Shown here: one piece after another, positions 56,194 to 64,000 of the stretch | Numbering within the stretch: the stretch's first letter is position 1 | Layout of the letters: every line of letters starts with the position of its first letter | Assembly (NCBI GenBank): GCA_947650365.1 | Contig: OX393549.1 | Location: 86,544,400 to 86,608,399 of the forward strand | DNA: 64,000 bases | DNA from: Chamaelirium japonicum | Taxonomy: Eukaryota; Streptophyta; Magnoliopsida; Liliales; Melanthiaceae | Direction: 5' to 3' | Translations under genes and position numbers: made by a program | The notes under the pieces: generated by a model | Told to the model about the DNA's origin: nothing | What the model saw: only the letters and a program-made list of their open reading frames with translations | The model's database searches: none

Positions 56194-56327
56194 TATATAT
56201 ATATATATATATATATATATATATATATATATATATATATATATATATATATATATATATATATATATATATATATATATATATATATATATATATATAT
56301 ATATATATATATATATATATATATATA

Positions 56328-56953
56328 GGTGTGTTAGGTTGCGCTGCGGCGGTGAAAGTGCGCTGCGACCTGTTATCGTCTGATCGGAATGGATCGAACC
56401 GCAGTGAGAAATCCCTCTTGATCAAACCCTGATCAAACCCGCTGCCCATTTGATTGGTTAGCTCGATTTCCATCCGTTGGATCGATGGGAATCGAACGGA
56501 CCAAAAAAATTTTGCTGTTACTGTAGCGGCTATAGTAACAGAAATTTTTTTTGGGCTGTTCGATTCCCATCGATCCAACGGATAGAAATCAAACGAACAC
56601 AAAATTGGTCCGGGTTATTTCTATTTGTAGGATCGATGAGAATCGAACGGATCAAAATTTTTTTGCTGTTACTGTAGCCGCTATAGTAACAACGATTTTT
56701 TGGTTCGTTCGATTCCCATCAATCTAACGGATGAAAATCGAATGAACACAACAATCGTTCCATCCGTTGGATTGATTGGAATCGAACGGCCCAAAATGTT
56801 TTTCGCTGTTACTGTAGCCGATACAGTAACAGTGAAATTGTTTTGGTCCATTCGATTCCTATCGATCCAACGGATGGGCATCGAACAAACCAATGGCAGC
56901 GGGTTTGATCGAGCGGGATTTCTCACTGCCGTTCGATCCACTCCAATCAGACG
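56328..56953. mobile_element. TA-flush module 1 (family B, 626 bp, three inner cores)
   Basis: It starts GGTGTGTTAGGTTGCGCTGC and ends CCACTCCAATCAGACG. The left TCTGATCGGAATGGATCGAA pairs with the right TTCGATCCACTCCAATCAGA. Inside are three palindromic cores of type GCTGTTACTGTAGC..GCTA(T/C)AGTAACAG (near 56513, 56665 and 56806), each flanked by ATCCGTTGGATCGAT or its complement, so it looks like tandem growth of an inverted unit. Confidence 0.8.
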
Positions 56954-57019
56954 TATATATATATATATATATATATATATATATATATATATATATATAT
57001 ATATATATATATATATATA

Positions 57020-57169
57020 GGGAAGTGCTAGAATGCGGCATGCGGTGAGTGCGGCATCGCACCGCAGCCGTCTGATGCACTGCTGCGTGCATCGCATGCA
57101 CGCAGCGCGTGCATCAGACGGCTGCGGTGCGATGCCGCACGCACCGCATGCCGCATTTTAGCATACCCC
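57020..57169. mobile_element. TA-flush module 2 (family A, 150 bp)
   Basis: It starts GGGAAGTGCTAGAATGCGGC and ends GCCGCATTTTAGCATACCCC. The whole element is one inverted repeat: GCGGCATGCGGT, GTGCGGCATCGCACCGCAGC and CGTCTGATGCAC are mirrored on the right, centred on GTGCATCGCATGCACGCAG. Confidence 0.88.
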
Positions 57170-57286
57170 TATATATATATATATATATATATATATATAT
57201 ATATATATATATATATATATATATATATATATATATATATATATATATATATATATATATATATATATATATATATATATATATAT

Positions 57287-57688
57287 GGGAAAGGGTAGCC
57301 TACTCCATGGAGTAGGAAACTTACCTACTCCATGGGTTATATAGATGCCACATGGCACTTTTTAATCATATTTTTTATTCATGTATGGTCAATCTAATAT
57401 GGATAGATTAGGATTATGAAAAAAAATCCGAAGAAAAAAACTTAAACCAACTCGATCAAGTTGAAACAAATTTAACGGTAAACTGTGTATCGTAAAAACA
57501 TATTTTTTGTGGATGCTAAAAATGCCACTTGGCTTATGTTTTTCTCAAAAAAAATTTCTTGATAATTGTTGGGAGGGGTGAACCTAACTTGACCAAGTCT
57601 TAACTTCCATCAAAAAGTACAACACGGCATCCATTTAACCTATGGAGTAGGTAAGTTTCCTACTCCATGGAGTAGGCTACCCTTTCCC
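57287..57688. mobile_element. TA-flush module 3 (family F, 402 bp)
   Basis: Ends are GGGAAAGGGTAGCCTACTCC and GGAGTAGGCTACCCTTTCCC. The arms of about 46 bp include ATGGAGTAGGAAACTTACC; the AT-rich middle (about 57340-57635) is not palindromic. Confidence 0.88.
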
Positions 57689-57858
57689 TATATATATATA
57701 TATATATATATATATATATATATATATATATATATATATATATATATATATATATATATATATATATATATATATATATATATATATATATATATATATA
57801 TATATATATATATATATATATATATATATATATATATATATATATATATATATATATA

Positions 57859-58402
57859 GGTGTGTTAGGTTGCGTTGTGCGCTGTCACCGTCTGATCGGA
57901 GTGGATCGAACGGCAGTGAGAAATCCCGCTCGATCAAACCCGCTGCCATTGGTTTGTTCGATGCCCATCCGTTGGATCGATAGGAATCGAATGGACCAAA
58001 AAAATTTCGTTGAGCTGTGAGCTGTGAGCTGCGGTTTTAGAAAGTGAGCTGCGGGTATTTTCACCCCCCTAGAAGTTTTGGAATTTGATGAAATTTGGTG
58101 AGGGTGTTTTCTAGGGTTAGATGATCATCCTCACCAACTTTCATCAAATTCCAAAACTTCTAGGGGGGTCAAATGGTCGAAGCAAAATCTGTCGTCCGTA
58201 GTCATCGTTAAAATCTGCAGCTTTTACGTCGACCATTTGACCCCCCCTAGAAGTTTTGGAATTTGATGAAAATTTGTGAGGATGATCATCTTACCCTAGA
58301 CAACACCCTCACCAAATTTCATCAAATTCCAAAACTTCTAGGGGGTCCAAAATACCCGCAGCTCATTTTCTCCTACCGCAGCTCGCAGCTCAACGTAACA
58401 GC
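57859..58402. mobile_element. TA-flush module 4 (chimera of family B left end and family C)
   Basis: The first 150 bp (GGTGTGTTAGGTTGCG, TGGATCGAACGGCAGTGAG, to GGACCAAAAAAATTTCG) match the left/right arm of module 1. From about 58009 it switches to family C (TTGAGCTGTGAGCTG.. CTCGCAGCTCAACGTAACAGC), which has its own inverted arms. The family B half has no right arm here. Confidence 0.8.
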
Positions 58403-58452
58403 TATATATATATATATATATATATATATATATATATATATATATATATATA

Positions 58453-58602
58453 GGGGCATGCTATAATGCGGCATGCGGTAAGTGCGGCACCGCACTACAA
58501 TCGTCTGATGCACAGCTGCGTGCATGTAATGCACACAGCGGGTGCATCAGACGCCTGCGGTATGGTGCCGCACTTACCGCATGCCGCATTATAGCATGCC
58601 CC
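58453..58602. mobile_element. TA-flush module 5 (family A)
   Basis: GGGGCATGCTATAATGCGGC to GCCGCATTATAGCATGCCCC, perfectly inverted ends; about 150 bp, same plan as module 2. Confidence 0.88.
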
Positions 58603-62260: not shown

Positions 62261-62488
62261 TCTCTCTCTCTCTCTCTCTCTCTCTCTCTATATATATATA
62301 TATATATATATATATATATATATATATATATATATATATATATATATATATATATATATATATATATATATATATATATATATATATATATATATATATA
62401 TATATATATATATATATATATATATATATATATATATATATATATATATATATATATATATATATATATATATATATATATATATATA

Positions 62489-62638
62489 GGGGTATGCTAA
62501 AATGCGGCATGCGGTGCGTGCGGCATCGCACCGCAGCCGTCTGATGCACGCGCTACGTGCATGCGATGCACGCAGCAGTGCATCAGACGGCTGCGGTGCG
62601 ATGCCGCACGCACCGCATGCCGCATTCTAGCACTTCCC
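62489..62638. mobile_element. TA-flush module 13 (family A)
   Basis: GGGGTATGCTAAAATGCGGC to GCCGCATTCTAGCACTTCCC; essentially module 2 in the opposite orientation. Confidence 0.88.
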
Positions 62639-62692
62639 TATATATATATATATATATATATATATATATATATATATATATATATATATATA

Positions 62693-62914
62693 CGGCGAGG
62701 AGTACTCCTATTCATGGCCTCTTACTCATATAGTTACCTATGATCCGGGCTGTCCATTAGATCCCGACGTACTGCTCGGATTAGATGGGGAGTTAACGCA
62801 ATGGTGTCTGCATTAAATGCCCGTATTAAAAGCTCGCATTTAATGTGGACACTATTGCTTTAATTCCCCATCTAATCCGAACCGTACGCCGGGATCTAAT
62901 GGACGGGCTGGATC
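62693..62914. mobile_element. TA-flush module 14 (family H, 222 bp)
   Basis: The left part, GATCCGGGCTGTCCATTAGA and GATTAGATGGGGAGTTAA, pairs with the right part, TTAATTCCCCATCTAATCC and GATCTAATGGACGGGCTGGA, around a centre with TTAATGCGAGC-like complement. The outer left 55 bp (CGGCGAGGAGTACTCCTATT..) has no right counterpart. Confidence 0.75.
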
Positions 62915-63055
62915 ATATATATATATATATATATATATATATATATATATATATATATATATATATATATATATATATATATATATATATATATATATAT
63001 ATATATATATATATATATATATATATATATATATATATATATATATATATATATA

Positions 63056-63688
63056 GGGGATAGGGAGCCTGAACATCAGGTGCAGCGTGAACGCTGCACC
63101 GGAGCCACCCCCCCGCTCGCCACGTGTCTAAGAAAATGGCCGGACCGCGTTTAAAACCTCGGGATGAACCACAACCGTCCGATCCGTTCGATCGGACGCG
63201 AGATCCGGCCGTCCGGATCTCAAATACACGGGATTGTCTGCCCGCCTCCGATCGGTTTGCCCCAGCCGTCTGATCCTTGCAGCACACCCCCGTCCGGTGT
63301 TTCAGTGGGTCGGATGATTCCCATCCGTTCAATCGATCGAATCGAATGGACAAAAATGTTTTTCGCTGTTACTGTAGCAGCTACAGTAACAGCGAAAAAT
63401 TATTTTATCTGTTCGATTCGCTTGATCGAACGGATGGGAATCACCCGGCCCAATTGGAACACCGGGCGGGGTGCGCTGCACGGATTAGACGGCGGGCAGA
63501 CGATCCCGTGTATTTGAGATCCGGACGATCGGATTTCGCGTCCGATCGAACGAATCGGACGGCTGTGGTTCATCCTGAGGTTTTAAACGCGATCCGGCCG
63601 TTTTATTGGACACGTGGCACGGGGGGGGGGGGGGGGTGGCTCCGGTGCAGCGTTCACGCTGCACCTGAGGTCCAGGCTCCCCGTCCCC
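63056..63688. mobile_element. TA-flush module 15 (family I, 633 bp)
   Basis: Ends GGGGATAGGGAGCCTGAACA and AGGCTCCCCGTCCCC, with a nested palindrome GTGCAGCGTGAACGCTGCAC on the left and GTGCAGCGTTCACGCTGCAC on the right. The arms run about 250 bp each. The centre is CGCTGTTACTGTAGCAGC..GTAACAGCG, the same core as in module 1. Confidence 0.87.
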
Positions 63689-63728
63689 ATATATATATAT
63701 ATATATATATATATATATATATATATAT

Positions 63729-63875
63729 GGGCATGCTATACTGCGGCATGCGGTGCGTGCGGCACCGCACAGCAGCCGTCAGATGCACGCGCTGCGTGCA
63801 TCGCATGCACGCAGCGGTGCATCAGACGACTGCGGTGAGATGCCGCACTTACCGCATGCCGCATTATAGCATTTT
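63729..63875. mobile_element. TA-flush module 16 (family A)
   Basis: GGGCATGCTATACTGCGGCA to TGCCGCATTATAGCATTTTT, the fifth family A copy. A long CT tract with one TTT interruption joins it to the last TA tract. Confidence 0.85.
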
Positions 63876-64000
63876 TCTCTCTCTCTCTCTCTTTCTCTCT
63901 CTCTCTCTCTCTCTCTCTCTATATATATATATATATATATATATATATATATATATATATATATATATATATATATATATATATATATATATATATTGAG

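Follow-up and report, generated by a model that had tools for sequence, protein, structure and literature searches.

A run of sixteen fold-back modules in TA microsatellites beside a decayed Mutator-like transposase element in Chamaelirium japonicum

Among the described systems that resemble the locus studied here, SaTar (2018) consists of short inverted-repeat, nonautonomous families of Mutator-like elements (MULEs) bordered by TA or other microsatellites, and it forms mixed, non-nested, TA-linked arrays in guayule and rice, and also in sorghum and citrus (PMC5907723). The pineapple Ac-mMITEs (2021) are MULE-derived miniature inverted-repeat transposable elements flanked by TA, with 46.1% of the full-length copies clustered (PMC8449440). 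MuTAnT/AutoMuTAnT (2015) of Medicago truncatula is a short fold-back MULE that sits in TA and has 9-nucleotide duplications elsewhere (PMC4486113). We analyzed a 64,000-nucleotide stretch of Chamaelirium japonicum DNA (the window; positions 86544400-86608399 of contig C1, OX393549.1, assembly GCA_947650365.1), searching a genome of 1.52 Gb in 3253 contigs, in which C1 accounts for 137 Mb. At the right-hand end of the window, a single run comprises 16 modules together with a transposase remnant, whereas a sorghum cluster of eight is the largest named in the cited parts of the SaTar account (PMC5907723). We consider it probable (roughly 85%) that the array consists of nonautonomous Mutator-like elements, that is, short fold-back MULEs, that inserted into (TA)n beside a decayed transposase-bearing MULE, which we call K.

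Fold-back modules and their TA flanks

In positions 56194-63996 (7.8 kb), 17 TA tracts (counted if at least 20 bp long; 1585 bp in total) alternate with 16 fold-back modules. The two halves of each module were aligned, and the inverted-repeat alignment beat all 20 shuffles of the same module in 16/16 cases. The predicted fold was likewise more stable than all five controls shuffled in 2-base blocks, again for every one of the 16 modules. The sixteen fold-back elements in TA proposed by the initial annotation therefore passed both tests. They carry long terminal inverted repeats, most of which start with GG or GA; the exceptions in the array are two one-end truncations (right ends at 56953 and 62914, with ~50 bp of the partner arm gone) and one fusion of families C and D (57859-58402). 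Nine terminus clusters (T0, T1, T2, T3, T5, T6, T7, T8, and T10) hold 28 of the 32 module ends, which agrees with the earlier count of at least seven end types. The remaining four ends are three singletons and one member of T4, a cluster held by GA runs. A (GA)n or (CT)n run lies between TA and module at 6/32 ends (59120-59146, ~59997-60008, 60579-60600, 61316-61336, ~62265-62288, and ~63877-63919). The description of the array as TA and modules only, with TA stopping at the termini, is thus correct for most ends but not for these six, for the two truncated ends, or for the fusion. The features of the array are as follows.

56194-56327: TA tract 1, (TA)67
56328-56953: module 1, family C, 626 bp, right end truncated
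56954-57019: TA tract 2, (TA)33
57020-57169: module 2, family A, 150-bp palindrome
57170-57286: TA tract 3
57287-57688: module 3, family B, 402 bp, ~80-bp terminal inverted repeats
57689-57858: TA tract 4, (TA)85
57859-58402: module 4, fusion of a family C left part (to ~58016) and family D without its outer bases
58403-58452: TA tract 5
58453-58602: module 5, family A
58603-58629: TA tract 6
58630-59029: module 6, family E, 400 bp
59030-59119: TA tract 7
59120-59146: (GA)n run from TA tract 7 to module 7
59147-59544: module 7, family D, 398 bp
59545-59607: TA tract 8
59608-59996: module 8, family F, then a (CT)n run to 60008
60009-60097: TA tract 9
60098-60494: module 9, family G, 397 bp
60495-60578: TA tract 10
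60601-60746: module 10, family A, with (GA)n ahead of it (60579-60600)
60747-60893: TA tract 11
60894-61279: module 11, family F, reversed relative to module 8
61280-61315: TA tract 12
61337-62264: module 12, family H, ~930 bp, G+C-rich interior, with (GA)n and (CT)n at either side
62289-62488: TA tract 13, (TA)100
62489-62638: module 13, family A, inverted relative to module 2
62639-62692: TA tract 14
62693-62914: module 14, family I, right end truncated (fuller copies at L044, L046, and L056)
62915-63055: TA tract 15
63056-63688: module 15, family J
63689-63728: TA tract 16
63729-63876: module 16, family A, then a (CT)n-rich run to 63919
63920-63996: TA tract 17

The genome-wide searches covered two families, A and D. 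The exact family-A terminus has 399 copies in the genome, and 358 of these (90%; one side scored) lie directly behind TATATATA. That count is free of the bias of the two that follow, for which copies were drawn from the 40 best scored of 1920 (A) and 2787 (D) first-look candidates. The A sample comprised 39 of the 40 scored places (the window's own was left out) and one copy from a genome block, 40 in all, and TA of at least 10 nucleotides stood at both sides of 35 of them. For D, 15 of the 40 scored places were examined, and all 15 had at least five TA units within ~70 bp at both sides, in some cases past a GA or CT run. We also sampled 19 blocks of 10 kb at fixed places in the genome (178,464 bases without N). 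There, all 12 TA tracts of at least nine units adjoined a module or a fragment, as judged by eye. The initial annotation had suggested, as one of two readings, that the elements target existing TA, and had proposed to count TA-flanked copies and to compare empty sites. The flank counts for the two families and the uninterrupted TA found at empty sites, at a near-identical locus and in two host repeats (see below), both support the suggestion.

One family A copy, L041, has no TA at either side. It lies between two copies of TACTTTAAC, which form a perfect 9-bp direct repeat, and the upstream unit of its host repeat has a similar unoccupied site, as judged by eye. Mutator-like elements make target-site duplications of 8 to 11 bp (PMC5907723), and the duplication at L041 fits that range.

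Two further observations concern copies of these families. In 37 best-scoring A copies (L002 to L059), 630 of 666 pairs were identical over 150 bp, a near-uniformity that suggests a recent burst, although these copies had been picked by score. A second group of TA tracts lies at 33640-33830 of the window and is immediately followed, from 33831, by the family-I terminus GGGGAGGGATACTCTTAC. The window yielded no second terminus to pair with it.

Empty sites and the proposed growth of tracts and arrays

A near-identical pair of sites, one filled and one empty, was found for family A. On contig C348 (L004) the arrangement is (TA)46-A-(TA)45, whereas the corresponding place on C1 has (TA)38 alone. 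The flanks, TA included, differ by 1 mismatch in 377 positions on the left and 3 in 377 on the right; the two places are alleles or a recent duplication. Paralogous sites gave a similar picture. Forty copies of a first host repeat were scored: in 28 the alignment runs through the site, and in 12 it is split there. Nine of the 28 unsplit copies were examined, of which eight have 4 to 8 TA units and one has 28. All 12 split copies were examined, and five hold modules: two A subtypes, an A pair, a J-like module (one side seen), and D. Different copies of one host microsatellite thus carry several module types. The other seven split copies have no module; six of these have 34 to 52 TA units and one has (AC)15 plus (TA)22. 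A sixth occupied copy, L007, lies outside the 40 scored. Tabulated by tract length, the 16 unoccupied copies of this repeat (within L077 to L096) fall into eight with 4 to 8 units, seven with 28 to 52, and one with (TA)22 beside (AC)15, leaving a gap between the classes. A second host repeat was compared at six places: five are module-free, with 8 to 44 TA units (two with adjoining GT runs), and one holds A. L004 (A) and L062 (D) are further occupied copies of it. Uninterrupted TA at near-identical and paralogous sites therefore supports insertion into existing TA.

At two other loci the empty sites are much shorter than the filled ones. L020, a family H module within one end of a copia-type element, has 66 and 67 TA units at its sides, against at most 3 to 4 in three empty paralogues. 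L027, a family A module, has 18+44 and 57 units, against at most 3 in two empty paralogues. Tracts therefore also grow with or after insertion, and the earlier proposal that the elements extend TA at their ends stands in part. Together these comparisons support the view that modules insert into TA runs already present, whether short or long, and that the adjoining tracts are often longer than those at empty sites. The window itself contains copia-type retrotransposon proteins and end pieces at 28186-33414, and two of the end pieces are empty sites for L020.

The same length differences are what would be expected if TA were part of the mobile unit, for example if circles with ends joined by microsatellite filler recombined into TA, so that insertion brought TA along. 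The guayule authors put forward such a model (PMC5907723). The short empty sites of L020 and L027 speak for it, as does L004, where the filled site has 91 TA units in total and its empty partner 38. However, module-free, uninterrupted TA stands at the near-identical and paralogous sites, and at L041 there is no TA and the 9-bp duplication lies right at the ends. Furthermore, the sole candidate for a target duplication outside TA among the TA-flanked copies, an 8-bp repeat (TTGAGTAT) in the flanks of L027, was rejected because it is also present in the empty paralogues; the other loci were judged by eye. We regard this explanation as unlikely, though worth keeping in view.

If modules instead insert into existing TA, as we propose, the steps might be these. 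A FAR1-type MULE transposase acting in trans would put a module into a TA run. The targets would be long TA tracts and, apparently, also runs of three to four units, and the staggered cut would duplicate ~9 bp, which would be invisible inside TA. Repair or slippage would next extend the tracts on both sides, in some cases absorbing the module's GA-starting terminus as (GA)n. Each insertion would leave two long TA tracts, and these could serve as landing sites for any TA-using family. We infer the timing and cause of tract growth and the direction of array change.

The distribution of GA runs can be set beside this model. Of 226 ends in 113 modules, 130 begin with GG, 44 with plain GA, and 32 with a GA run, and 20 begin otherwise. 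GA runs occur at 18/57 ends in clusters T1, T2, and T5 (families D, E, and H, whose plain ends are mostly GA) and at 9/124 ends in T0 (mostly family A, mostly GG). This fits GA runs that arose by slippage out of the end of the module itself, an origin already suggested for the pineapple elements (PMC8449440).

Array growth can be followed at L005 and L006, which are two copies of one array (98.7% identity over 616 bp, 100% over 428 bp, and 96% over 1464 bp, counting TA). At the place where L005 has (TA)49 alone, L006 carries (TA)49, a module of 744 bp, and (TA)57; L005 in turn has a 44-bp family E fragment with its own TA tract that is absent from L006. The simplest reading of the 744-bp difference is an insertion into the linking tract. 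We surveyed 19 stretches with two or more modules (the window included; pieces under 100 bp were left out) and saw by eye no module split by another, although fusions and truncations occur. If whole modules are added in the linking tracts, they will not be nested.

These arrays also bear on the possibility that the order of modules is an artefact of assembly. TA tracts are hard to assemble, and a 2500-base run of N, perhaps an assembly gap, starts at the first base past the window (C1:86608400-86610899), four bases after TA tract 17; the right edge of the array may therefore not be a true biological boundary. However, TA-linked arrays recur elsewhere in the 19 surveyed stretches, and one array is largely the same on two contigs (L005 and L006). 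In addition, the guayule arrays were validated by PCR (PMC5907723). An assembly artefact is therefore very improbable.

Transposase-bearing MULEs in TA and the class of the modules

The initial annotation stated that no transposase gene is present. This is correct inside 56194-63996, but K, with FAR1 and MULE domains, lies flush against the left side of the array. Its features, all on the + strand, are as follows.

47905-56193, +: K, remnant of a large transposase-bearing MULE, right terminus flush on TA tract 1
50159-51855, +: K transposase pieces in broken frames, with FAR1 and MULE domains (Pfam, tblastn)
55793-56193, +: K right-hand terminal region, outer terminus at 56193 (match to inverted ends on contig C6)

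Pfam found FAR1 at 50308-50547 (6.5e-07) and MULE at 50584-50991 (6.2e-15) in K, and no SWIM domain. Three transposase frames from a second large element (at L010) all align piecewise to K in tblastn searches (50159-51855), and the downstream piece of K aligns to the SWIM-bearing frame. The MULE parts of the two elements share 46% identity over 114 residues. The left part of K (47905-50400) matches C6:49713089-49715585 at 93%, and its right-hand end (55793-56193) matches both inverted ends of a 10.2-kb stretch of C6 (49706594-49716826), whose outer ends are both flush on TA. Two more relatives of K were checked at one end: the one on C12 is flush on TA, and the one on C1 has four TA units and then the end of another element. 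No left terminus of K turned up within the window. K is cut off at ~47904, and 47400-47904 matches a different many-copy repeat.

The second large element (C1:4998515-5007756; 9242 bp) has FAR1 and MULE domains and inverted ends that can be aligned over 490 columns at 76%. It is flush on (TA)15 and (TA)49 and belongs to a TA-linked array that also includes modules of the H, A, E, and J types. In our array, 40 bp at the right end of module 15 (J) are 82.5% identical to the end of this element.

Three side observations were made around these elements. Short inverted pairs of the K terminus occur at C7:61421749-61422243 and C1:55447054-55447373 and, judged by position, are perhaps small nonautonomous K elements. 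In the window, a tnp2 (Transposase_21) reading frame lies at 43313-45517, and a repeat with many copies of 93 to 96% stops at ~47904, where K starts. Finally, an element end, CTAGTAATGCCCGTGCC, and its variants stand against TA tracts at L010 (7855), L042, L057, L065, and L106.

We infer that transposases of this kind move these modules, and several observations weigh against the interpretation as a whole. None of the 16 array modules (0/16) matches K, so the link between K and the modules consists of position and shared domain type only, and we do not assert that K mobilized them. Transposase elements bearing the termini of families A, B, D, E, F, G, H, or I were not encountered, although no search based on termini was made. 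The 9-bp duplication was seen once only, at L041, in family A. The exact TATATATA is absent at 41 of the 399 A termini (few of these were inspected), TA stands at one side only in 4 of the 40 A copies examined, and those copies, like the D copies, are a biased sample of the best scoring. In one genome block without a TA tract, a core-related stretch (L017, 9236-9487) is ~72% alike. The unoccupied tracts of 28 to 52 units in the first host repeat point to growth without a resident module, unless a module was lost; growth therefore either needs no module or marks a lost one. Lastly, the difference between L005 and L006 could be a loss by recombination or deletion between TA tracts.

Two further explanations concern what the modules are and how they multiplied. 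They might be Tc1/mariner (Stowaway-like) elements with the 2-bp target duplication TA, as the TA at both sides of most examined A copies would allow. However, these modules have long terminal inverted repeats that mostly start with GG or GA, and the TA-embedded transposases carry FAR1 and MULE domains. The 9-bp duplication at L041, a copy outside TA, led us to reject a mariner-type identity, which we consider scarcely credible. Least probable of all is tandem or segmental amplification of one unit, which the recurrence of family A (five times in the array) and family F (twice) might suggest but which we rejected, as the initial annotation had, because it conflicts with the order of the modules (the window has nine terminus types, and same-family copies lie in both orientations with other families in between), with a best match of 93% for module 7 outside the window, and with A copies on many other contigs.

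Possible exchange of ends and comparison with described systems

Families D and E and a J-like module have a core of ~290 bp in common, with 82 to 96% identity per 50-column block, except for one block of 55 to 59% between the J-like module and D and E. Their outermost left 50 columns are 42 to 51% identical and their right columns 350 to 400 are 32 to 60% identical, with the top value for E and the J-like module. Module J of the window has another core, which is 75% alike the family C core over 142 bp. Thus, either ends were exchanged between bodies or ends diverged far faster than cores. One core of ~290 bp with three terminus types is possibly new; MULEs whose termini are duplicated and families of termini that occur on many interiors have been described (PMC3310237).

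A tentative idea, which we put forward as a minority possibility, is that fold-back MULEs swap ends within TA-linked arrays, which would act as a workshop. It starts from the core that is ~90% identical behind three terminus types (D, E, and J-like), with similarity falling ~60 bp from both ends, and from the J-like terminus on two cores. The TA tracts and palindromes would be the place of exchange, and a new family might be an old body with ends recognized by another transposase. If this were true, exchange of termini would be a route by which nonautonomous transposons change the transposase that moves them.

No report of this locus was found among the papers listed by the literature searches. 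The initial annotation had held a dense mixed colony of this kind to be undescribed; this was not so, because such arrays have been published for guayule and rice (PMC5907723) and for pineapple (PMC8449440). As in SaTar, there are mixed, non-nested, microsatellite-joined arrays with deletion fusions and autonomous MULEs within them, and some SaTar members have 10-bp duplications at ordinary sites, where we see 9 bp at L041 only (PMC5907723). SaTar has been tied to microsatellite-flanked autonomous MULEs with similar ends; here we found such similarity for J-like termini only (40 bp at 82.5%). The exchange of cores and termini suggested here is absent from the SaTar account as far as the cited parts extend (PMC5907723). 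The pineapple Ac-mMITEs are similar in having (GA)n/(TC)n runs at GA-starting ends and duplications of 9 or 10 bp in nonmicrosatellite copies. However, two families are described in pineapple, against nine terminus types in this window. The pineapple study found no autonomous partner (PMC8449440); in the present genome, by contrast, a transposase MULE whose terminus is J-like lies in TA.

MuTAnT resembles our elements in that its empty sites are on average shorter than filled tracts and in its Jittery-like transposase. The MuTAnT mask GGGGTTTGCTAGAACA, a search mask of 16 bases only, agrees with the family-A terminus GGGGTATGCTAAAATG at 12/16 positions by eye. MuTAnT is one family, and the cited parts of its account have no arrays (PMC4486113). 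Maize TAFT recalls L020 and L027, with empty sites of 6 to 8 bp of TA that are long on both sides once filled; arrays are not mentioned in the cited passages on TAFT (PMC5907723, PMC4486113). Rice Micron is also a short element in (TA)n and is likened to ours by description only (via PMC5907723 and PMC12550479).

Therefore, this array is of an already published kind. It adds a long array with a transposase remnant as its neighbor, empty sites of several classes within one genome, and the apparent exchange of cores and termini. The near-identical filled and empty sites, the host microsatellite with several families, and the pair of arrays that differ by one module make the growth of TA tracts and arrays traceable event by event, and the locus and its genome are material for questions that the published cases leave open.

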